NCBI GenBank assembly: GCA_945876945.1
Contig: CAMCQE010000032.1
Span: 1-33,466 of the forward strand
Source: Klebsiella pneumoniae
Lineage (GTDB): Bacteria; Pseudomonadota; Gammaproteobacteria; Ga0077536
Direction: 5' to 3'
Length of the DNA: 33,466 nt
The notes under the pieces are model-generated. The model worked only from the letters and a program-made list of their open reading frames with translations, was not told the DNA's origin and searched no databases. Shown here one piece after another: positions 4,063 through 33,466 of this stretch (position 1 is its first letter; every line of letters starts with the position of its first letter). Position numbers and translations under genes: made by a program.

Positions 4063-4896
4063 GTGCAATTAAAACACTGGGCAGGCGCCTGTATGGTCGG
4101 GCTGTGGCTGGTCACCGGCGGACTCGCCCACGCGGCCGGGAAGCAATCGGAAACCGAACTCTGGGACACGGTGCTGAAACCGCAGCACTTCCAGCAGCGC
4201 GTGATTTCCAGCGATCAGGCCATTGTTGAATTGCGCATCCCGGGGCGCGCCGAAGATTCCGGCGTGGTGCCGGTCAGCGTCAATGCCAAGATTCCGCAAA
4301 CCGCCGAGCGCTATATCAAAACGCTCTATGTGTTTATTGACCGTAACCCCAAGCCACTCGCAGGGGTTTTCCATCTCACGCCCGAAGCCGGCAAGGCGGA
4401 CCTGGCAATGCGTTTGCGGATTAACGAGTTCACTCACGTGCGGGTGGTGGCGGAACTGAACAACGGCGAATTGCATATGGATGCGGCCTACACGCGTGCG
4501 AGCGGTGGTTGCTCCGAGCCGCCGCCCTTTCTAAAACTCCGCGAGGCCCGCAAGCGCATCGGCGAAATGAAGTTCCGCGCCAATCATGAACAGGGGGAGG
4601 GCGGTGACGTGGCGCTCGGCCAGCTCATCATCAGCCACCCCAACGTGACCGGGCTCCAACTGGACCAGCGCACGCGCAGCTTCATTCCGCCGGAATACGT
4701 GACCAAGGTCGCGATTAGCTTCAATGGTCGGCACATCCTGTCGGCGGAGACTGATATCTCCATCAGCGAAGACCCAAGTTTCAGGTTCTTCTTCAAGCCC
4801 GAGGCTGGCGGCACGATAGAAGCCCGCATGACCGATTCCAAAGGCCGCGAATTTACCCGCAGCTTCCCGGTGGAAGCATCGGCCAAGGCCTCCTGA
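4063..4896 (+). CDS. Secreted SoxYZ-like fused carrier protein (quinoprotein dehydrogenase-associated type)
   Basis: A periplasmic 277-residue protein. Residues 1-25 form a signal peptide with a hydrophobic core ending in AHA. Residues 35-145 resemble SoxY and 165-272 resemble SoxZ, fused in one chain. In true SoxY a C-terminal GGCGG swinging arm carries the sulfur substrate; here the cysteine is Cys150 in SGGCSEPP, internal at the junction of the two halves. Such fusions are known as quinoprotein dehydrogenase-associated SoxYZ-like carriers. No other sox gene or quinoprotein dehydrogenase is in the window, so the partner is unknown. The start is GTG at 4063, chosen because CGGGGAG lies about six bases upstream and it gives a clean signal peptide. 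A small gene follows two bases after the stop. Confidence 0.83.
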   Translation: MQLKHWAGACMVGLWLVTGGLAHAAGKQSETELWDTVLKPQHFQQRVISSDQAIVELRIPGRAEDSGVVPVSVNAKIPQTAERYIKTLYVFIDRNPKPLAGVFHLTPEAGKADLAMRLRINEFTHVRVVAELNNGELHMDAAYTRASGGCSEPPPFLKLREARKRIGEMKFRANHEQGEGGDVALGQLIISHPNVTGLQLDQRTRSFIPPEYVTKVAISFNGRHILSAETDISISEDPSFRFFFKPEAGGTIEARMTDSKGREFTRSFPVEASAKAS

Positions 4897-7183: not shown

Positions 7184-8191
7184 ATGTCGATCCCAGCCTC
7201 GGCTGTCGTCCCGCTGCTCGGTCAGCCGTCTTTCGTGACGCTGCAAAGCCATGTTCTCGCCGAAGAACGCCGCCAGCCGGGGAACTGCGGCAACCTGTCA
7301 TGGATTATCTCGGCACTCGCGATCGCCGCCAAAACCATCGCCGCGCGACTGAAGAACGCGGGCATTGAAGACGTGCTGGGTGAAGTGGGCACGCAAAACG
7401 TACAGGGCGAGCGGCAACAGAAACTCGACGTCATCGCCAACCATCTGCTCATCCAGCTGCTCGGGACCCGCGAGGGCGTGGCCGTGATTGGGTCGGAGGA
7501 AAATGACGAACTGCTGCTGGTAGAGGCCGAGGCCAACGGCGGTCAGCGCTATGCCGTATTGTTCGACCCGCTGGATGGCTCGGCCAACCTCGATGTGGGC
7601 GGCAGCGTGGGCACCATCTTTTCCATTTTTAACGTGCCCAAGGGCGCCGAGCATGTGCTGCAAACCGGACGGCGGCAGGTGGCCGCCGGCTACGTGCTGT
7701 ACAGCTCTTCCACCATTTTCGTTTTAACCACGGGACTCGGCGTGCACATGTTCGTGCTTGATACGGCGGTGGGCGCGTTCATTCGGGTTCAGCAGCATCT
7801 GCGCATGCCGGCGTCCGGCACAATTTACTCGGTCAATGAAGCCAATGTCGCCAGCTTCCCGCCGGGTTATCAGGCGTATCTGGCGCAATGTCGGGACGCG
7901 GGATTCTCTTCCCGCTACGCCGGCGCGATGGTGGCCGATGTGCACCGGGTGTTGATCAAGGGCGGCGTGTTTCTGTATCCCCCAACCGCCAAGTCCCCGC
8001 AGGGCAAACTCCGTCTGATGTACGAAGCTAACCCAATGGCCATGTTGATTGAGCAGGCCGGGGGCATGGCGTCGACCGGGCGCCAGCCGATTCTTGATCT
8101 CGTGCCAGACGAACTGCACCAGCGGGTGCCAGTGGTGCTGGGCAGTACGGGCAATGTGCAGGCCCTGCTGGACCTGCTCAAGGCGGCATAA
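7184..8191 (+). CDS. fbp: Fructose-1,6-bisphosphatase class I
   Basis: Encodes 335 residues of class I fructose-1,6-bisphosphatase, the cytosolic enzyme that converts fructose-1,6-bisphosphate to fructose-6-phosphate and phosphate in gluconeogenesis and, where present, the Calvin cycle. The metal-binding block FDPLDGSANLDVGGSVGT is intact, as are GAMVADVHR and the substrate-binding segment GGVFLYPPT with KLRLMYEANPMAMLIEQAGG. Length is typical. AGGAG at 7173-7177 identifies the ATG at 7184 as the start, over an upstream in-frame GTG at 7133. No other Calvin-cycle gene is in the window. The 3' end runs into a GC-rich hairpin. Confidence 0.97.
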   Translation: MSIPASAVVPLLGQPSFVTLQSHVLAEERRQPGNCGNLSWIISALAIAAKTIAARLKNAGIEDVLGEVGTQNVQGERQQKLDVIANHLLIQLLGTREGVAVIGSEENDELLLVEAEANGGQRYAVLFDPLDGSANLDVGGSVGTIFSIFNVPKGAEHVLQTGRRQVAAGYVLYSSSTIFVLTTGLGVHMFVLDTAVGAFIRVQQHLRMPASGTIYSVNEANVASFPPGYQAYLAQCRDAGFSSRYAGAMVADVHRVLIKGGVFLYPPTAKSPQGKLRLMYEANPMAMLIEQAGGMASTGRQPILDLVPDELHQRVPVVLGSTGNVQALLDLLKAA

Positions 8192-8215
8192 AAAAGCGGC
8201 CGCTGTGGGCCGCTT
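8190..8215 (-). terminator. Intrinsic terminator for the porin locus (minus strand), possibly bidirectional
   Basis: A perfect 8-bp stem AAGCGGCC / GGCCGCTT (8194-8201 and 8208-8215) with a six-base loop. On the minus strand the stem is followed by six T (8195-8190), the arrangement of a Rho-independent terminator downstream of the minus-strand porin. On the plus strand it lies just after the fbp stop codon with only a weak T-tract, so it may terminate both converging transcripts. Confidence 0.8.
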
Positions 8216-8273
8216 AAGGGTTGAATGACTCGGCGCATCGGGCGCATCGCGCGCCGTGGAACGCGCCGTCAGT

Positions 8274-9467
8274 CTAGAAGGTCACGCCCACCCGCAGGCC
8301 GACCACCGCCGCGTCTTTAATGGCGCGGTCGCTGCCGGGATTAAAGAAATACTGGAAGTCTGGCTGCACCAGCAGCCACGGTAGCGGGGTGATGGCGTAG
8401 GTCACTTCGATCAGGGTTTCGGCCTCGCGGAAGCCGCCGGGATTTGCATTCAGGAATTTGTCGCCGTTGCGCGCATAGGCCAAGGCCACGCCCGCCACGT
8501 CGGCGGGCCTGCTCGCCAGCGGCCCGGTCCAGTTCACGCCGCCGCCTGCGTAAAGATCGGTTTGGTTGTTGGCCTGATCGGCAAAGCCCAATTGCCCGAA
8601 GACCCCGAGACCGCGGCCGTCCTCGCAGCGCCAGAGATCGGCTTCGCCCAACACATACATGCCGCTGTTCTGGCCACGAACGCCGGTGAGCATGTTGTCG
8701 AAATCGGTCTGGTGCCAGCCGCCAACGGCGATTTTGAAAAAATGTCATTCAGCCCCGGTGAGGCCGGCTTCGCCGATGGCGAGCACGCCGTCATGATCGT
8801 TGAAGTCAACATGGGTGCCGTAAGGATCGGTCGGGTCGCCGGGCACACCGTCATAAACCGCGCCCATCACGTAGGTGGTTTCGGTCGGGCTCACTTTGAC
8901 CCGCACCGCCATCGCCGTGGTGGGAAAAATGGAGGGTTTAATCTGGCCGATTTCCTGTCCGTTACCGAACGAACTGTTGAGAAACACGCCGCCGAGATCG
9001 CTAACGTAGAACTCGCTGTTCAAGTCGTGCAGACCGGCCAGCACGCTGAGTTTGTCGTCGACGAATTTATGCTCGTACCAGGCTTCGTAGAGCTTTACGG
9101 TATCCGGCGCTTCGATGTTGCTGGCGACCTGCAGGGCGCCGAGCAGATTGGTGGTGTCGCCGCCCGTATTGCCCAGCAGGTACAGGCGCAGGGTGCCGTT
9201 GTTCCACCAGCCGGCCTTGCCGGTATCAATCTGCACCGCGAGGTCGAAGTTGGCGGGGGATTCGACCCCCTGCTTGATGCCGCCAGAGACCACACCCAGC
9301 ACGTCTACCGTGGCGACAGCCTCGATATCGGTGCCTTTTTCGGCCAGCGCCGAGCGCTTGCCGCCCCAGTCGCCCAGTAGCCACGGGTTCGGATCACCCT
9401 CCGCAAACGCCTGCGGCTGCAGGCTGACAAGCCCAAGAGTCAGGGCGGCGGTGCGGCATCGGTCCAT
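8274..9467 (-). pseudogene. Carbohydrate porin, OprB family, interrupted by one in-frame TGA
   Basis: Read on the minus strand from ATG 9467, the frame gives a signal peptide (about 23 residues, ending AFA) and the mature start EGDPNPWLLGDWGGKR, typical of OprB-type sugar porins. It continues as beta-barrel sequence to TGA at 8747-8745. The same frame resumes at once with HFFKIAVGGWHQTDFDN and runs to a normal C-terminal phenylalanine at 8277 (GLRVGVTF). The whole would be about 397 residues, a normal size. There is thus no frameshift and no missing segment, only a single nonsense codon about 60% along. TGA is used as a normal stop by neighbours, so recoding is unlikely. A truncated barrel would not assemble, so this is a recent pseudogene or a sequence error next to a T6 run (8736-8742 region). 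Confidence 0.85.
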
Positions 9468-16056: not shown

Positions 16057-16140
16057 GGCGAGAATGCGGCATGGCTGTCTACGCCGCCTGCGCGTAGTGC
16101 ATGCGGTCCCCTTTTCTAATTTCTGCGAGGTTTGTGCGCC

Positions 16141-18222
16141 ATGCCCTATCGGATCTCTGTCGACACCGGTGGCACCTTCACGGACGTAGTCGTGACGGAT
16201 AGCTCCGGCGGTTTCACTATCGGAAAAGCGCTGACGGACCGTCAACGCGCGTTTGCCAGCATCGAGGCCGGTCTCGCGGTCGCCGCCGAACATCTGGGCA
16301 CCACTGCAGCGGCGCTGCTGGCGGATACCTCGGTCTTCCTCTACGGCACCACCCGCGCGACCAACGGCATCGTCGAGCGCAAAATCGCCCGCACCGCGTT
16401 CCTCACCACCGACGGTTTTCCGGACATCCTGCTGTTGAAAGAGGGCGGTAAAGCCGAGCCGCATAACCTGCGGATGGAATACCCGGATCCCTATATCCCC
16501 CGGCGCTATACCTTCGAAGTGCGGGAGCGCATGAACGCCGAAGGCGCGGTGGAGACCGCGCTCGACGAAGCCGCGCTGCGCAGCCTGCTCGCGACCTTCC
16601 CTCAGCGCGGAATCGAAGCGGTGTCGGTGTGTTTGCTGTGGTCGATTGCCAACCCGGCGCACGAGTTGCGCGTAGGGCAGTTGATTGAAGAAGTGCTGCC
16701 CGGCGTGCCTTACACGCTGTCGCATCAAATCAACCCGATTCTGCGCGAATACCGGCGCGCGTCGTCGACCGCGATCGATGCCTCGCTGAAGCCTTTGATG
16801 CAGAAATACCTGTCGGATCTCGAAGCCGATCTCCGCGCCGCCGGCTATCAGAACGACATTCTGGTGAGCACCTCCTTTGGCGGCGTGATGCACCTGACAG
16901 ACGTCGTGCAGCGCCCGATTTATCTCGTGAAATCGGGTCCGGCGATGGCGCCGATTGCAGGACTTTCTTACGTTGAAGCCGAAAATTTGCCGAAAGACGT
17001 GATCGTGTGCGACGCCGGCGGCACCACGTTTGACGTCAGCCTGGTGCGCGACGGCGCGGTGGAGTTCTCGCGCGATACCTGGCTGGGGCCGCAATGGACG
17101 GGCGACAACCTTGGCATGGCCTCGGTAGCCGTGCATTCGATTGGTGCTGGTGGCGGCTCGATTGCCTGGGTGGATTCCGGCGGCCTGCTTCGCGTAGGCC
17201 CGCATTCCGCCGGCTCCGAACCTGGCCCCGCCTGTTACGGACGCGGCGGGCAACGCCCCACCGTGACCGATGCGGCCGTCGTGCTGGGCCACTTCGATCC
17301 CAAGCATTTTCTGGGCGGGCGGATGACGCTGGACGAACCCGCGGCGCGCGCGGCGGTGGCGCAAGTCGCCGAGGCCTTGGGGCAGACGGTGGAGCATGCG
17401 GCGTGGGCCATCATCGCGGTGGCCAACGAAAACATGATCGAGGCCATCAAGGAATTGACCATCAACGAAGGCATCGACCCGGCTGAATCGGTGCTGATCG
17501 GCGGCGGCGGCGCGGGCGGGCTGAACATCGTGCCGATTGCGCAGGAACTGGGTTGCCGCACGGTGCTTTGCCCGCGGACTGCCGGCGCGCTGTCGGCTTC
17601 CGGCATGCAGTACTCGGACATCATCACCGAGGCCGGGGCGAGCAAGTTAACCGCCTCGGACGGCTTTGATTTTCCCGGCGTGAACGCGGCGCTGGGGAGT
17701 ATCGACGCGCGGCTGGATGAATTCGCCGCGCGACTGGCCGAACGCGGCATCACCGAAGTGGAGAAGCGCTATTTCGTAGAGGCGCGTTATCGCTTTCAGG
17801 TGTGGGAACTCGACGTTGGCGTGGCCAGCGGGCAGTTTCAGGATCAAGCCGAAGTCGACGCGCTCGTGGCGGATTTCCACCGGGTTCACGAGCGCGTGTT
17901 CGCGGTGCAGGACCTCGGCAACGCGGTGGAGTTTCTGAATTGGCGCGGCCGGCTCATCGCCCGCGTGCGTCAGGCCACTCTGGAGCCCGGTAAGGAGGCC
18001 TCACTTGAGGACTTGAAGCCGGATCGGATCCGGCCTGCCTACTTCGGCAACGGCTGGGTCGATACCTCGATTTATCTGGGCGAACGCCTGCCGGCGGGCA
18101 CGCTGGTGAATGGTCCCGCAGTCATTGAAGAACCGACCTCTACGCTGGTGATTTATCCCGGCGCGGTGGCCACAGTCAGTCCCGGCGGACGCTACATCGT
18201 CACGCCGCCAGTGGAGGCCTGA
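16141..18222 (+). CDS. hyuA: Hydantoinase/oxoprolinase family subunit A (HyuA-like, ATP-binding)
   Basis: A 693-residue subunit of the hydantoinase A / acetone carboxylase-beta family, which uses ATP to activate a substrate for ring opening or carboxylation. The ASKHA ATPase motifs are visible: phosphate 1 ISVDTGGTFTDVVV at the N-terminus and phosphate 2 VCDAGGTTFDVSLV with Asp291. The adenosine motif is near VLIGGGGAGGLNIVPIAQELG. ATG 16141 follows GCGAGG at a good distance. The stop is two bases before the start of hyuB, so the two subunits are co-translated. Members act on hydantoins, 5-oxoproline, caprolactam, acetone or acetophenone; substrate cannot be told here. No third (gamma) subunit is present, which argues against an acetone carboxylase. 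Confidence 0.9.
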   Translation: MPYRISVDTGGTFTDVVVTDSSGGFTIGKALTDRQRAFASIEAGLAVAAEHLGTTAAALLADTSVFLYGTTRATNGIVERKIARTAFLTTDGFPDILLLKEGGKAEPHNLRMEYPDPYIPRRYTFEVRERMNAEGAVETALDEAALRSLLATFPQRGIEAVSVCLLWSIANPAHELRVGQLIEEVLPGVPYTLSHQINPILREYRRASSTAIDASLKPLMQKYLSDLEADLRAAGYQNDILVSTSFGGVMHLTDVVQRPIYLVKSGPAMAPIAGLSYVEAENLPKDVIVCDAGGTTFDVSLVRDGAVEFSRDTWLGPQWTGDNLGMASVAVHSIGAGGGSIAWVDSGGLLRVGPHSAGSEPGPACYGRGGQRPTVTDAAVVLGHFDPKHFLGGRMTLDEPAARAAVAQVAEALGQTVEHAAWAIIAVANENMIEAIKELTINEGIDPAESVLIGGGGAGGLNIVPIAQELGCRTVLCPRTAGALSASGMQYSDIITEAGASKLTASDGFDFPGVNAALGSIDARLDEFAARLAERGITEVEKRYFVEARYRFQVWELDVGVASGQFQDQAEVDALVADFHRVHERVFAVQDLGNAVEFLNWRGRLIARVRQATLEPGKEASLEDLKPDRIRPAYFGNGWVDTSIYLGERLPAGTLVNGPAVIEEPTSTLVIYPGAVATVSPGGRYIVTPPVEA

Positions 18223-18224
18223 AC

Positions 18225-20021
18225 ATGAACGAACAAGCTGTAAAACCCGTCGCGCGCACCATCGACCCCATCCTGATGGCGGTGTTGGCGAATCGTATGA
18301 ATGCCATCGTGCGCGAGATGTCGAACACGCTGTTGAAGACCGCGCGCTCGGCGGTGCTGGCGGTAGTACGTGACTTCTCCTGCTCGATTGTGACCGGCGA
18401 CAACCGGCTGCTGTGTCCGGGTGAAGGACTCCCCGTGCATATTTTTGGCTCGAGCCTGCAGTCGCAGTCGATGTGCGATTTGCACAAAGACCTCGCGCCG
18501 GGGGACGCGTTTTTGCACAACGACCCTTACCTCGGCAACACGCATGCGGCTGACCACATGGTGATGGCGCCGGTGTTTGTGGATGGGGTGCATCTGTTTA
18601 CCACCTGCGCCAAGGCGCATCAGGCGGACTGCGGCAATTCCATTCCTTCCACCTATCACGCTTATGCCCGCGACATTTACGAAGAGGGCGCGTTGATTTT
18701 TCCCTGTGTGCGCGTGCAGAAAGATTACAAGGACGTCGACGACATCATCCGCATGTGCAAACGTCGCATTCGAGTGCCGGAGCAGTGGTACGGCGATTAC
18801 CTCGCCGAAATCGGCGCGGCGCGTATTGGTGAGCGCCGTCTGATTGAGCTCGCTCGGCGCTATGGCGTGGAAACCATCAAGGCGTTCATCGAAGAGTGGT
18901 TCAGCTACTCCGAGCGCCGCATGGTCGAGGCCATCAAGAAAATGCCGGCGGGCAAGCTGACGAATACCACCACCTACGATCCGCTGCCGCCGGTACTGCC
19001 GGACGGCCTGCCGATTCGGGTGGATGTGGCGGTGGATTCCGAATCTGGATATATCGACGTCGACCTCACCCACAACGCGGACAACATGGCCTTCGGCCTC
19101 AACGAGTCGCTGGCCTGCGCCACCTCCAACGCGATGTGCGGCGTCTTCAACTGCATGGATCCGGACGTCCCTCATAACGCCGGCAGTTTTGCGCGGGTGC
19201 GCGTGCATTTGCGGGAAGGCTGCATCACCGGGATCCCGAAGTTTCCCCACAGTTGCTCGATGGCGACGACCAACATCGGCGACCGCATCGTCAACGTGAC
19301 GCAGTCGGCGTTTGCGTCGATCGGTGATGGCCACGGGATGGCCGAAGGCGCGATCGGCATGGGGGCCGGGGCTGCCGTGATTTCCGGCAACGACTGGCGT
19401 CGTAACGGGCCGTTTATCAATCAGGAATGGCTAGTCACCAACGGCGGGCCGGCGACGCCGGAAACCGACGGCTGGCTGAACTACGGGCTGCCGGTGGCGG
19501 CGGGTCTGATGTATCGCGGCAGCGTCGAAGTCGATGAATCCAAATATCCGATTCTGGTGAAACATCTGCGGGTCATTCCCGGCGGCGGTGGGGCAGGGCG
19601 GATGCGCGGCGCGCCGGGCTCGGAAATTGTCTACGGCCCGCGGCACGATCCGATGACCATCGTGGTGTCTTGCGATGGCCAGGTGCATCCGCCGCAGGGC
19701 GTGCGCGGTGGCCAGGCCGGACCCGCGGCGGCGACCTTCAAGGTGGCTGCCGACGGGCACGAAACCAAACTCCCCGGCGTGGTGGAATGTGTGCTCCAAC
19801 CGGGCGAATGGATTCGCGGCGTGGACTGCGGTGGGGGTGGCTACGGCAATCCGCTGGAGCGCGACCCGGCCCGTGTGCTGCGGGACGTGGTGGAGCGTTG
19901 GGAAACCGCCGCACGGGCGTTTGAGGTGTACGGGGTGGTGCTAAGCGGCGCGGTTGACGACGACACGCTGGCCGTCGATGTGGACGCTACCAAGGCCCGT
20001 CGCCAGAGCCTCGGCGCCTGA
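18225..20021 (+). CDS. hyuB: Hydantoinase/oxoprolinase family subunit B (HyuB-like)
   Basis: A 598-residue partner of the HyuA-like subunit. The family core is plain: DPILMAVLANRMNAIVREM, FSCSIVTGDNRLLCPGEGLPVH, the metal-binding stretch GDAFLHNDPYLGNTHAADHM, and the C-terminal glycine-rich GGGGAGRMRGAPGS and GGGGYGNPLERDP. It begins two bases after the hyuA stop and ends eight bases before the convergent receiver-HPt gene. Together with HyuA it forms an ATP-dependent amidohydrolase or carboxylase, in the cytosol. Confidence 0.9.
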   Translation: MNEQAVKPVARTIDPILMAVLANRMNAIVREMSNTLLKTARSAVLAVVRDFSCSIVTGDNRLLCPGEGLPVHIFGSSLQSQSMCDLHKDLAPGDAFLHNDPYLGNTHAADHMVMAPVFVDGVHLFTTCAKAHQADCGNSIPSTYHAYARDIYEEGALIFPCVRVQKDYKDVDDIIRMCKRRIRVPEQWYGDYLAEIGAARIGERRLIELARRYGVETIKAFIEEWFSYSERRMVEAIKKMPAGKLTNTTTYDPLPPVLPDGLPIRVDVAVDSESGYIDVDLTHNADNMAFGLNESLACATSNAMCGVFNCMDPDVPHNAGSFARVRVHLREGCITGIPKFPHSCSMATTNIGDRIVNVTQSAFASIGDGHGMAEGAIGMGAGAAVISGNDWRRNGPFINQEWLVTNGGPATPETDGWLNYGLPVAAGLMYRGSVEVDESKYPILVKHLRVIPGGGGAGRMRGAPGSEIVYGPRHDPMTIVVSCDGQVHPPQGVRGGQAGPAAATFKVAADGHETKLPGVVECVLQPGEWIRGVDCGGGGYGNPLERDPARVLRDVVERWETAARAFEVYGVVLSGAVDDDTLAVDVDATKARRQSLGA

Positions 20022-27042: not shown

Positions 27043-28572
27043 TCAGGCAATGGTGACTTTAGCCATCTCGTCCACCGCCTGACGGTGGTCGGGGAAGAAA
27101 CGCAGCATCTCCATACACTGTTTGCGCGCGGCGCTTGGGTCCACTGCTTGATGCTTGCCGGTGGCGCGCCGTGGCTTCTTTGGAAAACGTCCCATCCCGC
27201 CCAGAATGCAGAACCACGACGTTGGGCTGTAGGCCAAGCGGTCGCGCTGGCGCGTGATTTCTGCCAGCAGGTCGCCGCCTTCATCCCAGGTTGCCAAAAT
27301 AGCCGCTACTGAATCCGAGACATTGGGGTTGTCGCGCGCCGCGATCCAGTAGGGCGTATCGGTGCGGGTGTTCAGCTTGTAATGCATCTGGATGTAGTCG
27401 CGGATGCTGTCGTACACCCGGTTAATTTTGTCGTTGAACTCAGCGCGCTGGCGCTCGAGGGCGCGCGCGGTGCCGAAGGAGGCGATGAACTGCTCGACGG
27501 TGTCTTGCACGATCATCAGCGCAGTCGCCTCCAGCGGTTCAACAAATCCCTGCGCCAGTCCAATCGCCACACAGTTGCGTTCCCAGGTGCGTTCCAGTCG
27601 GCCAACCCGCATTTGCAGATGACGCGCTTCGCCGCTGTCGTCAGTCAGTTGCAGATGGGCACGCAGTTCGCGCTCGGCGGCGTCCGGCTCGATAAAGTCG
27701 GATGAATACACATACCCGTTGCCGTAGCGATTGGTCAGCGGAATCTTCCACGCCCAGCCGCATTTCATGGCGGTGGAGAGCGTTTCCGACGGCAGTGATT
27801 GTGGATTCTCCAAAGGCGTAGGCATCGCCACCGCGCGATCATTGAAGAGCCAGGGTTTGTAACTCATGAACGGCACGCCGAGGGTTTTGCCCGACAGCAG
27901 ATTGGCAAACCCGGTGCAGTCGACGAAGAAATCAGCATCGACCAGACCGTGTTGCGCGGTCTCAACCCCCGCAATGTCGCCGTTTTCGGTCTGCTGGACG
28001 CGGGTCACGGTATCCACCAGAGGCCTCACGCCCCGCGCGCTTGCCCAGTGGCGTAAAAACTCGCCAATCAGGCGCGCATCGAAGTGATAGGCGTAGTCCG
28101 ACTCATAGCGGCTGCGGGGATCCGGCAGCGGCGCGCAGCGCTTTTTGGCCACCCAGTTGGATAGAAAAAACCAATCTGGATTGGCCTGTACGTCGATGTT
28201 TTGCTGGCGGAGCGTGACGTTGTGGTGGAAGGCGCGGATTGAGGCGTCGTCGCTCATCGTGAAAAACGGGTGGTAATAGCTTTCGTAGCCCGGGCGCGTC
28301 GACCACTGGGGAAAACGGATCCCGCACTTATACGTGGCATTGCAGGCTGGCATCCATTCCTGATCCGGAATCCCCAGCGTTTGGAAGAAGCGCCGCATTT
28401 TGGGCGTCGCGCCTTCACCCACGCCGATGATGCCAATGGTCGAGGACTCCAGCAGCGAGATTTGAACGCCCTTGGACGCCCAGTGATGCGCCATCAGTGC
28501 GGCCGTCATCCAGCCGGCTGTGCCGCCACCCACAATGAGAATTCGCCGCGGTGTATTGGTTTGCTCATTCAT
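27043..28572 (-). CDS. Flavin-dependent halogenase (tryptophan-halogenase family)
   Basis: A 509-residue enzyme of the tryptophan 7-halogenase (PrnA) family, which uses reduced FAD, oxygen and halide to halogenate an aromatic or indole-like substrate. FAD-binding GGGTAGW is at 15-21, the catalytic lysine is Lys82 in CNATYKCGIRF, the diagnostic WxWxIP is present as GWAWKIPL, and the GFVEPLEATAL block carries the glutamate near the active site. ATG 28572 has AGGAAA upstream; the frame open to 28620 has no better start. No flavin reductase, transporter or biosynthetic genes are nearby and sqr is convergent. The native substrate is unknown; free tryptophan is only one option. Confidence 0.9.
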   Translation of the reverse strand: MNEQTNTPRRILIVGGGTAGWMTAALMAHHWASKGVQISLLESSTIGIIGVGEGATPKMRRFFQTLGIPDQEWMPACNATYKCGIRFPQWSTRPGYESYYHPFFTMSDDASIRAFHHNVTLRQQNIDVQANPDWFFLSNWVAKKRCAPLPDPRSRYESDYAYHFDARLIGEFLRHWASARGVRPLVDTVTRVQQTENGDIAGVETAQHGLVDADFFVDCTGFANLLSGKTLGVPFMSYKPWLFNDRAVAMPTPLENPQSLPSETLSTAMKCGWAWKIPLTNRYGNGYVYSSDFIEPDAAERELRAHLQLTDDSGEARHLQMRVGRLERTWERNCVAIGLAQGFVEPLEATALMIVQDTVEQFIASFGTARALERQRAEFNDKINRVYDSIRDYIQMHYKLNTRTDTPYWIAARDNPNVSDSVAAILATWDEGGDLLAEITRQRDRLAYSPTSWFCILGGMGRFPKKPRRATGKHQAVDPSAARKQCMEMLRFFPDHRQAVDEMAKVTIA

Positions 28573-29021
28573 CGTGATTGCTTTCCTAATCTTTGGGCGC
28601 GCTACAAAAACGGCCTCCATGCGGCCTATCGTAGCCGGAAGCTTTTGCTTGCCGCGACCCGTTAGTAGCGACGCTGTCTGCGCGATAGGAATGGACTCAG
28701 CTGTTGCGTCGCAGCACTAAAACTTCCCCTAAATCAGATAATTGACACCCCTTACCCTCGTCCATATAGTCCGGGCAGGTGGCGAGCCAGCGGTCTCAAA
28801 CGAGTCAAGATCGCGAATGCGCCACCGAGCATCGTTCAGAGGGGGGCGGAGCAGGCTTGCGACAGTCGGCTCTCGCATCGGAACGGAAGCTCAAAACTAA
28901 AATTAATTACGTTCCACCAAGGGAGCTCCGACTCGTACCGCAGCCCGTTCGGAAACCGATTAACCTCGCGTCCCGAATACAAGCTGTGCGCCGAGCGGTC
29001 CCAATTCCGGGATAGAAAACA
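28573..29021. other. Non-coding stretch with RND operon promoter and long leader
   Basis: About 450 bases without a convincing gene. The left part holds the upstream region of the halogenase (minus strand). The right part holds a near-consensus promoter at 28742-28770 and then about 245 bases of leader before the RND start. A 78-codon frame at 28779-29015 crosses the leader but has no ribosome-binding site or recognisable protein features, so it is not called. An AT-rich block (28895-28915) lies inside otherwise GC-rich leader. Confidence 0.6.
28742..28770 (+). promoter_or_regulatory. Near-consensus sigma70 promoter of the RND/YCF48 operon
   Basis: TTGACA (28742-28747), a 17-base spacer and TATAGT (28765-28770): eleven of twelve consensus positions with optimal spacing. 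Transcription would begin near 28777 and give a 5' untranslated leader of about 245 bases before ATG 29022. Confidence 0.8.
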
Positions 29022-31451
29022 ATGGGACTGAGACATCGCTTTGCCGCTTGGGTAATTAATAACCGCAATCTCTCGCTGGCTATCCTGCTGGCAATCACCG
29101 CGTTCTTCGCAGTGGGCCTCACCAAGGTGCAGGTCAAAACGATCTTCTCCGACCTCTTCCCCAAAGATCACCCCTTCGTCCAGACCTACAAAGCGCATAA
29201 CAACTTCGGCAACCCGCTCACCGTGGTGCTGATGGTCAAGCGCAAAGACGGCGACATCTACAACAAAGACACGCTGCAAAAAGTCTGGGACCTGACCAAG
29301 GAAATCGACCTCGCGCCGTCGGTCGACCACGACCAGATTTTGTCCATTGCCACAGAGAAAGCCCGTTACTCCGAGGCCACTCCTGATGGTGTCGAAGTCA
29401 AACCCTTGATGGACGCCAAAGCGCCAGAAACGGCCGAAGAACTGGCGGACTTCAAAGTGCGCGTCGACCGCGCCAACAACGTGCGCACCTTCCTGATCTC
29501 GGGCGACGAAACCGCCACGCTGGTGTCTGCCACGTTTATCGAACGCACGCTGGACTACGGCCAGACGTTTGAGTTCGTGCAACAACTCGTTGAGAAGAAC
29601 CGCGACGAACACCACGAAATTTACGCCGCCGGCCAGCCCATGCTCACCGGTTGGGTGTACCGCTATCAGGTACAGATGCTGACCATCTTCGGCATCACCG
29701 CCACCGCGCTCATCCTCTCGCTGGTGTTCTACATGGGGAACATCCCCGGCGTAGTCGCCCCGGTGACCGTGAGCATCATCGGCGGCATTTGGGGCTTCGG
29801 CCTTACCGGTTGGCTGAATCAGCCCATTGAACCCCTCATCATGGTGGTGCCCATGTTGCTGGTGGCGCGTGCGTTCTCGCACTGCGTGCAGTATCTCGAG
29901 CGCTATTACGAAATCCTCCATGAAGTGAAGGACAAGCAAAAAGCCGCAATGCTCTCGCTGGGCGTGATGATGGCGCCGGGTATTCTCGGGATCATCACTG
30001 ACTTCGTGTGTTTGTACCTGATCGCCATCGCGCCGATTCCGGTCATGGAACGCTTCGCCATCTTTACCGGTACGTGGGCGGTTGCGCTGATTCCCACCGA
30101 CGTGTTCCTGTCCGCGCTGTTGGCGTCCTACCTGCCAACCCCCGGCAACGTCGACGTCCTCATCGGCAAGTCCGACAAAAAGACCTGGCACAACAGCCTC
30201 ATTAACCTGCTCGGCGCTATCGGCCGTTTGTCCCATGGGGCGAACGCGCGGATGACCACCGTCGTAGTGGTCGTGATCTCGGTGCTATCCATTTGGTTAT
30301 CCACCCAGCTCCGCATTGGTAACCCGGTGGAAGGCAGCAACCTGCTGTTCAACACCTCGGAGTTCAATACGGCAGTTCGCGCCATCAACTCCCACTTCCC
30401 CGGATTGATGACGCTGGAAATCGTGTTTGAGGCCAAGGGCAAAGACGAGGCCGCCGACGCCAGCTTCCAGGGCGAGAACGCGCCGCGCATTTTGCGCCAG
30501 GCGCAAACCCTCGCGACCATGCTCAAAATGCAGCGCTTCCTGGAAGCCGAGCCTCAGCCACCGGAAGCCACGCTTTCATTTGGTGACTACCTGCCGGAAG
30601 CGAGCCGCTTGATTAGCGGTGGTAATCCCAAGATGGCGCCGCTGGACAACACCAACATGGCGGTTGACGGCGCGGTGACGGCCCTGCTGATGGGGTCTAA
30701 CGCCAAGAACTATGGCCACGTCACCGACTTCACCATGCAGAACGGCACCCTGTCGCTCTGGTACAAGAACAACAAGCAGGAAACCGTGGACATGGCGCTC
30801 GATCAAGCCCAGCGCGCGGTGGAATCGGTGGGCGCTGACCACCCCAACTTCCGCATCCGACTTGCTACGGGCGCCATCGCGCTTCAGCAATCCGTGAACG
30901 ACGTGGTACATGCGAACAAGTGGCTTATTCTGGGCTGCCTGAACGTCATCATTCTGTTTGTGGTGAGCTACGCCTACCGTTCGTTTGTGGCCGGCTTCAT
31001 CCTGCTGATCCCGGTAAACCTTTCGAACGCCATGCTGGAAGGTGTGATGGTGCTCCTCGGCATTGGTCTGGACGTGAACAGTCTGCCGATTGCCAGTATC
31101 GGTATCGGTGTCGGTATCGACTACGGCATCTATCTCGTCAGCCGCATGTGTGAGGAATACCAGGAATCGAAGGATTACGGCGCTGCCATCCAGCACGCCA
31201 TCCAAACCTCCGGCAAGGCCATTTTCTTCACCGCGACCATCGTGCTCATCAGCATCCTGCCGTGGTACTTCATGTCGAAACTAAAATTCCTGTCCGACAT
31301 GGGCCTGCTCCTGGTGATGGTCATGACCATCAACATGATCATTTCGCTTATCGTGCTGCCGCTGCTGGTGTGGTGGATTAAACCCAAGTTCATTGCTTCC
31401 GAAGATCAGCTGATTTCGGAGAAAATAGACTTGACCGCGCACCGGGCGTGA
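29022..31451 (+). CDS. RND superfamily (MMPL-type) transporter
   Basis: An 809-residue inner-membrane transporter of the RND superfamily with duplicated halves. Segment 1 is at about 14-34, a large periplasmic loop spans 35-215, a five-helix cluster follows (215-400), a helix near 410-430, a second periplasmic loop 430-620, and the final six helices. The RND helix motif GIGVGIDYG has the proton-relay Asp700; the matching first-half region is LVARAFSHCVQYLERYYE. It resembles the MMPL/hydrophobe exporter branch used for lipids and hydrophobic molecules rather than AcrB. It is the first gene after a strong promoter; a YCF48-type protein follows, then a DUF1302 gene. No membrane-fusion protein gene is nearby. 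Substrate and direction are unknown. Confidence 0.9.
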   Translation: MGLRHRFAAWVINNRNLSLAILLAITAFFAVGLTKVQVKTIFSDLFPKDHPFVQTYKAHNNFGNPLTVVLMVKRKDGDIYNKDTLQKVWDLTKEIDLAPSVDHDQILSIATEKARYSEATPDGVEVKPLMDAKAPETAEELADFKVRVDRANNVRTFLISGDETATLVSATFIERTLDYGQTFEFVQQLVEKNRDEHHEIYAAGQPMLTGWVYRYQVQMLTIFGITATALILSLVFYMGNIPGVVAPVTVSIIGGIWGFGLTGWLNQPIEPLIMVVPMLLVARAFSHCVQYLERYYEILHEVKDKQKAAMLSLGVMMAPGILGIITDFVCLYLIAIAPIPVMERFAIFTGTWAVALIPTDVFLSALLASYLPTPGNVDVLIGKSDKKTWHNSLINLLGAIGRLSHGANARMTTVVVVVISVLSIWLSTQLRIGNPVEGSNLLFNTSEFNTAVRAINSHFPGLMTLEIVFEAKGKDEAADASFQGENAPRILRQAQTLATMLKMQRFLEAEPQPPEATLSFGDYLPEASRLISGGNPKMAPLDNTNMAVDGAVTALLMGSNAKNYGHVTDFTMQNGTLSLWYKNNKQETVDMALDQAQRAVESVGADHPNFRIRLATGAIALQQSVNDVVHANKWLILGCLNVIILFVVSYAYRSFVAGFILLIPVNLSNAMLEGVMVLLGIGLDVNSLPIASIGIGVGIDYGIYLVSRMCEEYQESKDYGAAIQHAIQTSGKAIFFTATIVLISILPWYFMSKLKFLSDMGLLLVMVMTINMIISLIVLPLLVWWIKPKFIASEDQLISEKIDLTAHRA

Positions 31452-31515
31452 AGCCCGGCAGTTGCCGGAACCCTGACAAAGACTTATTCGCAAGCCATTT
31501 TTGAACGAGGACAAC

Positions 31516-32538
31516 GTGGACAAGAGCAAAAATTTTCAGCGCAAGGGCGCGCGCTTCATTACCGGGCTGACGCTGTTGCTGGCGAGCACCATGCCGCTGA
31601 TCAGTATCGCGGCCGACGAAGCGGCGCCGTCTGCCGCGCTGGCGACCGTGCACAAAGGCATTCCGCACGATGCCCTCTATGCGCTGAATTTTGTCGGTAA
31701 GAACGGCCTCGCGACCGGCGCGGCCGGCGCCATTCTCGAGACCAAAGACGGCGGCGCGACTTGGACGGACGTGAAGTCCCCCACACAGGTTGGCCTCTTC
31801 GGGATTGCCGTCAATGGTGACAAACGCGTCATCGTGGGTCAGCAAGGCACCGTGCTGGTGGCCAACGGCGATACATGGGAACCCATGAAGTCTGGCAGTG
31901 ACAAGCGCCTGCTGAACGTTGGCATGAACGCCTCTGGCTTGGCCATCGCAGTAGGTGAGTTCGGCACCATCCTGCGCTCCAAGGACGGCGGCAAGTCTTG
32001 GGAGCCGCGTGTTCTTGACTGGGCTTCCTACCGCGATGACGGCTACGAGCCGCATGTCTACTCGGTGGACGTTCAGGACTCTGGCCGCATCGTCATTGGT
32101 GCGGAGTTCACCTACGTGCTGATCTCTGAAGACGGTGGCGAGACCTTCAAGCTTGCGAACAAGGGCGAGAAGTCCATTTTCGCGATGCACCTGCAGGCTA
32201 ATGGCACGGGTTACGCCGCTGGTCAGGAAGGACTCGTGATGAAAACCACCGACAACGGCAACACCTGGACCGTGCTGAAGACCGGGTCCGACGCCAACCT
32301 TTTCGGCATCTGGGCCTCAGCCCAGGGCGAAATCGTGGCGACCGGCATGCGCGCGCTGCTTCGTAGCAGCGACGCGGGCGAGACGTTTACCGGCTCCACC
32401 GACACCGCTGTCGTGCGCAATTGGTTTGTGCCAGTGGCCGCGGGTCAATCCGAGACCAAAGGTGAAGGTGGCGGGCTGGTGCAAGAAGTGGTGTATATCG
32501 CAGGCCATGACGGCGTAATCGCTCGCGTGTTGCGATAG
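31516..32538 (+). CDS. YCF48-related secreted beta-propeller (BNR/Asp-box repeats)
   Basis: A 340-residue exported protein. The start is GTG 31516 with GAGG five bases upstream; a TTG at 31501 is also open. Residues 10-34 form a signal peptide ending in SIAA. The mature protein is made of Asp-box turns of the form DGGxTW: DGGATWTDV, DGGKSWEPR, DGGETFK, DNGNTWTV and DAGETFTG, consistent with a seven-bladed propeller like photosystem II factor YCF48. In proteobacteria such propellers occur beside RND transporters and DUF1302/DUF1329 genes, as here. It is probably a periplasmic or outer-membrane-facing adaptor; no enzymatic residues of sialidases are evident. Confidence 0.87.
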   Translation: MDKSKNFQRKGARFITGLTLLLASTMPLISIAADEAAPSAALATVHKGIPHDALYALNFVGKNGLATGAAGAILETKDGGATWTDVKSPTQVGLFGIAVNGDKRVIVGQQGTVLVANGDTWEPMKSGSDKRLLNVGMNASGLAIAVGEFGTILRSKDGGKSWEPRVLDWASYRDDGYEPHVYSVDVQDSGRIVIGAEFTYVLISEDGGETFKLANKGEKSIFAMHLQANGTGYAAGQEGLVMKTTDNGNTWTVLKTGSDANLFGIWASAQGEIVATGMRALLRSSDAGETFTGSTDTAVVRNWFVPVAAGQSETKGEGGGLVQEVVYIAGHDGVIARVLR

Positions 32539-32608
32539 CACAACGCTAAGCCCACGGCCCAATCATCGCCTCAACGCAATTTATCCCCAATATGGCGGAT
32601 AAAAACCG

Positions 32609-32637
32609 TTGAACAATGCTTGGGCATGGGCTAGATT
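32609..32637 (+). promoter_or_regulatory. Possible sigma70 promoter upstream of the DUF1302 gene
   Basis: TTGAAC (32609-32614), 17-base spacer, TAGATT (32632-32637). It would let the DUF1302 gene be expressed separately from the RND-YCF48 pair, with a leader of about 170 bases. Confidence 0.5.
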
Positions 32638-32694
32638 CCGGAACAAGGTCAGGTTAGTGGCGGTAATGCCGCACATGACCCTGATACAAGGATC

Positions 32695-32715
32695 GGTTGT
32701 TGTATAAGAACAACC
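32695..32715. repeat. Hairpin in the DUF1302 leader
   Basis: Perfect 7-bp arms GGTTGTT (32695-32701) and AACAACC (32709-32715) with a seven-base loop, about 100 bases before the GTG start. It could be an operator or an RNA stem in the leader; no T-tract follows, so it is not a terminator. Confidence 0.5.
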
Positions 32716-32813
32716 CGGCAAACGGCGGCATTCGGGCCATTCAAGCCCCTCTAATGCACCGTCTGCTTCTGGGGGACGAGACGTAATCTCACGATTAACA
32801 GAGGAGAGCGGGA

Positions 32814-33466
32814 GTGGCTAAAAATAAACTAAAGGGCTTGGTGCTCGCGGGCGGCACCGTCGCCAGCGCGATGGCCGGCACTGCGGCTTACGCCGTAGAC
32901 GTCAACATTTCGGGATTTGTTCGGCAGGAAATCGCGGTTTCAGTGTCCGACGAAGGGAACCCGTTCAACACGGCTTCCAACGACTTCATGGGCCGAGTCA
33001 TTCCTAACGTCACCAACCCTGGCGTGGGTCTCAGCAACGGCGGGGACCTGACGCCCGGCGGAACAGTGTCCACCGGCAAAGGAGTGCCGTTTGATAACGG
33101 CGGGTTCACCTCCCCAATCAAAGGCTTAACTGCCACTTCTGGCGCGGCAGCAAGCGGTGCCTACGTTGGCGCGATGGCCGGGCGCATGGCCGGCGCGGCC
33201 GCTGGCTGTCTCGCCACTGGAACCTGCGGAGCTACCGCCAGAGGCTTGCGCGACGACAACACTTTCAACCTCTTCGCTACGCGCGCTGAAATTGACGTGA
33301 TGGCCCAGTGGAACGACTCAATCAAAACCTTCGTCAAATTCCGCGCCTTCTCCGACTATCAGGAGAAGTTCAACGACCAGCTCGGCACCCCGGGCGGCCA
33401 CTTTGCTGCCGACTTTGGCTTTTACGGCCAGCAGGCGGGCAACGTGCTGGAATGGAACACGCCGAG
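32814..33466 (+). CDS. DUF1302 family protein, 5' part (runs off window end)
   Basis: An open frame of 217 codons continues past the window end. GTG 32814 has GAGGAG and GGAG just upstream. Residues 1-27 form a signal peptide (VLAGGTVASAMAGTAAYA). The mature start VDVNISGFVRQEIAVSVSDEGNPFN and the later FNLFATRAEIDVMAQWNDSIKTFVKFRAFSDYQEKFN are beta-barrel-like, as in DUF1302 outer-membrane proteins. Between them (about 109-144) is an alanine/glycine-rich insert with repeated small residues (GAMAGRMAGAAAG) and two cysteines, Cys132 and Cys138, unusual for an outer-membrane strand. DUF1302 genes usually pair with DUF1329, expected beyond the window. The function is unknown, with a role in hydrophobic-compound handling inferred from context only. 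Confidence 0.8.
   Translation, partial: MAKNKLKGLVLAGGTVASAMAGTAAYAVDVNISGFVRQEIAVSVSDEGNPFNTASNDFMGRVIPNVTNPGVGLSNGGDLTPGGTVSTGKGVPFDNGGFTSPIKGLTATSGAAASGAYVGAMAGRMAGAAAGCLATGTCGATARGLRDDNTFNLFATRAEIDVMAQWNDSIKTFVKFRAFSDYQEKFNDQLGTPGGHFAADFGFYGQQAGNVLEWNTP

Follow-up and report, generated by a model that had tools for sequence, protein, structure and literature searches.

Envelope crossing of strongly hydrophobic compounds in Gram-negative bacteria is poorly understood. The locus described here raises the question of whether an inner-membrane pump, a periplasmic propeller, and a DUF1302 protein, encoded one after another at the end of a contig, form a single route through the envelope, and with which partners. 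The window, meaning the whole stretch of DNA that was analyzed, is the entire contig C32 (G000:C32), 33466 bp, of a 3.8-Mb draft genome. A sequence-only reading had placed the three genes in order under a near-consensus promoter, and this arrangement is confirmed by Pfam, by relatives, and by conserved promoter hexamers (Table 1). The same reading took the route to be of a poorly described kind, which does not hold. The trio itself is of the known Ame kind, and what is new here is that a conserved row joins it to a motor/vWA module, which lies past the end of the window.

Table 1. Positions and supporting evidence for the promoter region, the transporter genes, and the paired ExbD-like genes. 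Positions refer to the window unless another contig or locus is named.
Feature	Position	Strand	Evidence or remark
Probable operator, 15-bp near-palindrome TGTTGCGTCGCAGCA	28702-28716	.	Conserved in three relatives; single exact genome match
Sigma-70-type promoter, TTGACA-17-TATAGT	28742-28770	+	11/12 matches; hexamers kept in relatives
RND/MMPL (putative HAE3-type) inner-membrane pump, 809 aa	29022-31451	+	Pfam MMPL; HAE3 profile; 12 TM; TM4 SHxVQ; TM10 DYGIYL
Secreted YCF48-type beta-propeller	31516-32538; ORF opens 31501	+	Pfam PSII_BNR; Ycf48-like proteins in PDB
DUF1302 outer-membrane protein, residues 1-217, cut at contig end	32814-33466	+	Identity to relatives; full-length relative is DUF1302
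Two ExbD-like genes	L150 (own C136) 7518-8369; relatives L119-L146		Asp versus Asn at key helix position

The pump matches the Pfam MMPL family in a profile search (3e-24) and the HAE3 profile at 6e-43, with a score of 147 bits that lies under the curated cut-off of 352 bits. A hydropathy scan gives two large loops in addition to the transmembrane segments, and weak profile matches connect the protein to HpnN, BstA, and MmpL3. The propeller is encoded by a 345-aa ORF with a signal-like segment at its N-terminus and a Pfam PSII_BNR/YCF48 match of 2e-16, and its matches in the PDB are Ycf48-like proteins. Of its two candidate starts, GTG at 31516, which is preceded by GAGGA, is likelier than TTG at 31501. 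Only 217 of the ~760 residues of the DUF1302 protein are present, the rest being lost to the contig end. Searched by itself, this fragment matches no Pfam family; its nearest relatives share 78-82% identity with it, and a full-length relative of 762 aa matches DUF1302 with 72 bits. Placement in the outer membrane, as had been proposed, is supported by a signal peptide, a C-terminal Phe, a beta-strand pattern, and the porin matches of a predicted structure that is itself weak (mean pLDDT 55, pTM 0.59), so only its barrel class is used.

A promoter with 11/12 matches would arise by chance in the 401 bp upstream, read on the + strand, with a probability of ~0.00025. Conservation supports the site: both hexamers are identical in three relatives (L090, L094, and L100) despite drifted surroundings. 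The near-palindrome adjoining the promoter occurs in exact form nowhere else in the genome and is likely a local operator, a regulatory role suggested by its position and conservation.

No membrane-fusion protein is encoded among the RND, YCF48, and DUF1302 genes of the window, in agreement with the sequence-only reading, and neither an HlyD/AcrA-type fusion protein nor a TolC-type channel was found among the genes of the wider cassette. By gene content, the cassette would thus not be counted as a classical tripartite HAE1 RND efflux pump. Its nearest described counterpart is AmeABCD of Castellaniella defragrans, reported in 2018 as a set of RND, YCF48, DUF1329, and DUF1302 proteins; deletion mutants tolerate monoterpenes less well and accumulate more Nile Red (PMC6394551). 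Both have an RND protein, of HAE3 type in AmeABCD and putatively so here, a YCF48/COG4447 periplasmic protein, DUF1329, and DUF1302, and both lack a classical fusion protein. The DUF1302 assignment is made through full-length relatives, and for the window fragment through its identity to them; DUF1329 is found on another contig of the same genome (C136) and on 12 relatives' contigs, does not adjoin DUF1302, and would be joined to the window as set out below. AmeABCD runs DUF1302-DUF1329-YCF48-RND, whereas the order here is RND-YCF48-DUF1302-...-DUF1329. Since the A-B-C-D order is not kept, the cassette is classed as an Ame variant rather than a plain member, on a likeness that covers composition and the RND signature of Ame-order pumps. 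RND proteins of Burkholderiales cassettes in the Ame order carry TM4 SHxVQ and TM10 DYGIYL as the window pump does, at ~25% identity. A compact RND-DUF1329-YCF48-DUF1302 row in Zavarzinia has an RND protein at ~60% identity.

Related gene sets are known from other bacteria. In P. putida, PP_0765/PP_0766 and PP_2018/PP_2019 are required on Tween 20, so that DUF1302, DUF1329, a periplasmic protein, and an RND protein, matching the domains here, are needed together; that set is split over two loci with no motor module reported, unlike the single row here (PMC10866462). A strongly expressed nanopod cluster of the benzene degrader ORM2a shares porin-like, DUF1329, YCF48, and MMPL genes with the cassette, and differs in having a universal stress protein and in listing no motor/vWA module (PMC13101534). 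The alkane uptake pair AupA/AupB was considered as a relative and rejected, as AupA is FadL-like and neither DUF1302 nor RND is mentioned. Further DUF1302, DUF1329, and RND genes lie on contigs C22, C122, and C93 of the genome studied here (G000), where several related systems may coexist.

Conservation of the row was surveyed in 36 genomes of the window's own family, which in this sample also make up its entire order. DUF1302 directly follows YCF48 in all 27 of the relatives' loci, which supports the view of the genes as one envelope system. RND precedes YCF48 in 19 loci and is absent there in three loci with upstream sequence, and the remaining loci start too near YCF48. The trio genes do co-occur in relatives, so the earlier claim is not refuted on that count. 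The conserved unit extends past DUF1302, and the window shows only its front end; the row continues in relatives with ExbB-ExbD-ExbD-vWA-TPR-acyl-CoA ligase-DUF1329. ExbB, ExbD1, and ExbD2 come next after DUF1302 in 16 of the 20 loci with enough downstream sequence, in one of which (L144) they follow only after a 2-kb gap. Where the contig continues beyond the motor genes, they are followed by the vWA protein, the TPR protein, and often the acyl-CoA ligase. The ten-gene row also occurs in G154, from another family of the class (contig L098). The TPR protein is present in 30/36 family genomes, and among 369 sampled genomes of the class it was seen in only four family members and G154.

The downstream half of the row has a counterpart in the genome under study. 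Contig C136 starts inside ExbD1 and continues with ExbD2, vWA, TPR, ligase, and DUF1329. In the nearest relative, a single contig (L125) covers both halves, at 87.5% identity to the window end and 91.5% to C136, and this alignment, which strongly suggests that C32 and C136 are neighbors, leaves 2458 bp for the remaining DUF1302 and ExbB. Neither the remainder of DUF1302 nor ExbB was found in the draft genome, and both fall in the assembly gap. DUF1329 and acyl-CoA genes, for which the sequence-only reading had advised a search, thus both lie in the same inferred cassette, in C136 and in relatives. Its further suggestion, that the propeller replaces a fusion protein as the periplasmic link, stands in part. 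AmeB and AmeC had already been put forward as the fusion proteins by the AmeABCD authors in 2018 (PMC6394551). As the sole link the propeller is unlikely, and in that role it is rejected, because DUF1329 belongs to the cassette. The DUF1329 protein (L112 1008-2384, on C136) begins with a twin-arginine-like signal, SRRHF, and may be exported folded.

In the motor part of the row, ExbB, ExbD1, and ExbD2 are identified by Pfam. The vWA protein has a TonB-like layout of a single N-terminal helix, a Pro-containing linker, and a C-terminal vWA domain (Pfam); S-x3-H in the helix and a MIDAS-like DATG[S/T] in the vWA domain are each kept in 18/18 sequences. The proton-carrying helix Asp is kept in 17/17 ExbD1 sequences, and the equivalent position of ExbD2 is Asn in 17/17 and also in G154, a difference that suggests an asymmetric motor dimer. 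The TPR protein has a signal-like start and is predicted to be an all-helical solenoid (mean pLDDT 82). A row of motor, transducer, and TPR genes is also found in Vibrio TonB2 clusters.

A vWA "force transducer" module was described in 2025 without an assigned function, and motor-transducer-TPR rows occur in PVC-group clusters (PMC12204202). At the level of composition the module here matches it, with a tolQ-like gene, two differing tolR-like genes, a TMH-linker-vWA protein with the TonB-type His, and a TPR gene. Unlike the cassette here, the published module is mentioned with no RND/DUF1302 transporter beside it (PMC12204202), and the described AmeABCD cassette has no ExbB/ExbD/vWA/TPR genes. 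A literature search found no link of vWA/motor modules to RND/DUF1302 transporters; most subscription papers fell outside it, and absence is not proven. A row holding both a transporter and a vWA transducer makes each testable through the other.

The gene content, order, and conservation of the cassette, and the topology and motifs of its products, are direct observations, and they are probably best explained by a transporter of the Ame type that carries a hydrophobic compound across the envelope and is coupled to a proton-driven motor. The RND pump would act in the inner membrane, the propeller and DUF1329, which is LolA-like, would form the periplasmic link, and DUF1302 would be the outer-membrane barrel. 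The ExbB/ExbD motor would pull the TonB-like vWA protein, which with the periplasmic TPR solenoid would act on an outer-membrane or periplasmic part, opening or assembling it. A physical complex, a transfer of force, and the nature of the substrate are presumed in this scheme, and it is conserved gene order alone that suggests the coupling of motor to transporter. The acyl-CoA ligase would activate an imported acid. TonB-type energy normally serves import, and for this reason, together with the ligase in the row, the balance tips slightly toward uptake. Published Ame work argues for export (PMC6394551).

A narrower version of this scheme, in which the motor pairs an active ExbD (Asp) with a changed one (Asn) and makes the vWA transducer gate the RND-DUF1302 hydrophobe route mechanically, is advanced tentatively, at somewhat less than even chances. 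If coupling is true, a single transporter would be powered by two proton-driven machines, the first seated in the inner membrane and the second extending toward the outer membrane. If mechanical gating is true, an RND system would receive energy in a TonB-like manner, and vWA transducers would gain a first function.

Gene order is no proof of contact, and the modules separate in some genomes. In G017, G018, and G019, vWA-TPR is kept and the motor genes are missing from the row; G028 keeps DUF1302-DUF1329 without motor or vWA-TPR; and the motor-vWA-TPR-ligase row of G026 and G025 (loci L169 and L174, respectively) has no adjoining RND trio, so the module is separable. These cases hold confidence in the coupling at a moderate level. 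G028, G026, and G025 are what would be expected if two separate systems were neighbors in the row, with the motor/vWA/TPR module doing a different job in the envelope, for instance maintaining the outer membrane, from that of the Ame-type transporter. The absence of motor genes near the Zavarzinia and Burkholderiales cassettes, and the occurrence of the motor-transducer-TPR row elsewhere, in the Vibrio and PVC-group clusters, fit that account as well. It is nevertheless judged unlikely, though deserving of weight, as the module is kept between DUF1302 and DUF1329, both of one Ame-type set, in at least eight genera and another family.

A plain Ame-type detoxification exporter, in which the propeller and DUF1329 serve as fusion proteins while the motor has no role, would agree with the AmeABCD deletion phenotypes (PMC6394551) but would not need conserved motor genes and an acyl-CoA ligase in its row, and it is considered very improbable. 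About as improbable is a lipid exporter that, in the manner of hopanoid or sterol transporters, helps to build the outer membrane of the cell itself. In its favor are the weak HpnN, BstA, and MmpL3 matches of the pump, the LolA-like DUF1329, and a near-universal presence in the order (TPR in 30/36 genomes), but in TM4 the pump carries the signature of Ame-order pumps, and HpnN functions without such partners (PMC6394551).

Beside the coupled transporter, which remains the preferred reading, the surroundings of the row show some features of their own. Divergent from RND is a flavin-dependent tryptophan-halogenase-type gene (27043-28620, - strand), whose position is kept in several relatives. 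Upstream of RND in L088 (992-8523) and similar loci are hydantoinase/acetophenone-carboxylase-like genes and an uncharacterised 309-aa protein. The hydantoinase genes of the window (16132-20021) were considered as their equivalents and rejected at only 24-29% identity. Further upstream in the window, SoxY and SoxZ domains are fused in a single ORF (4063-4896).
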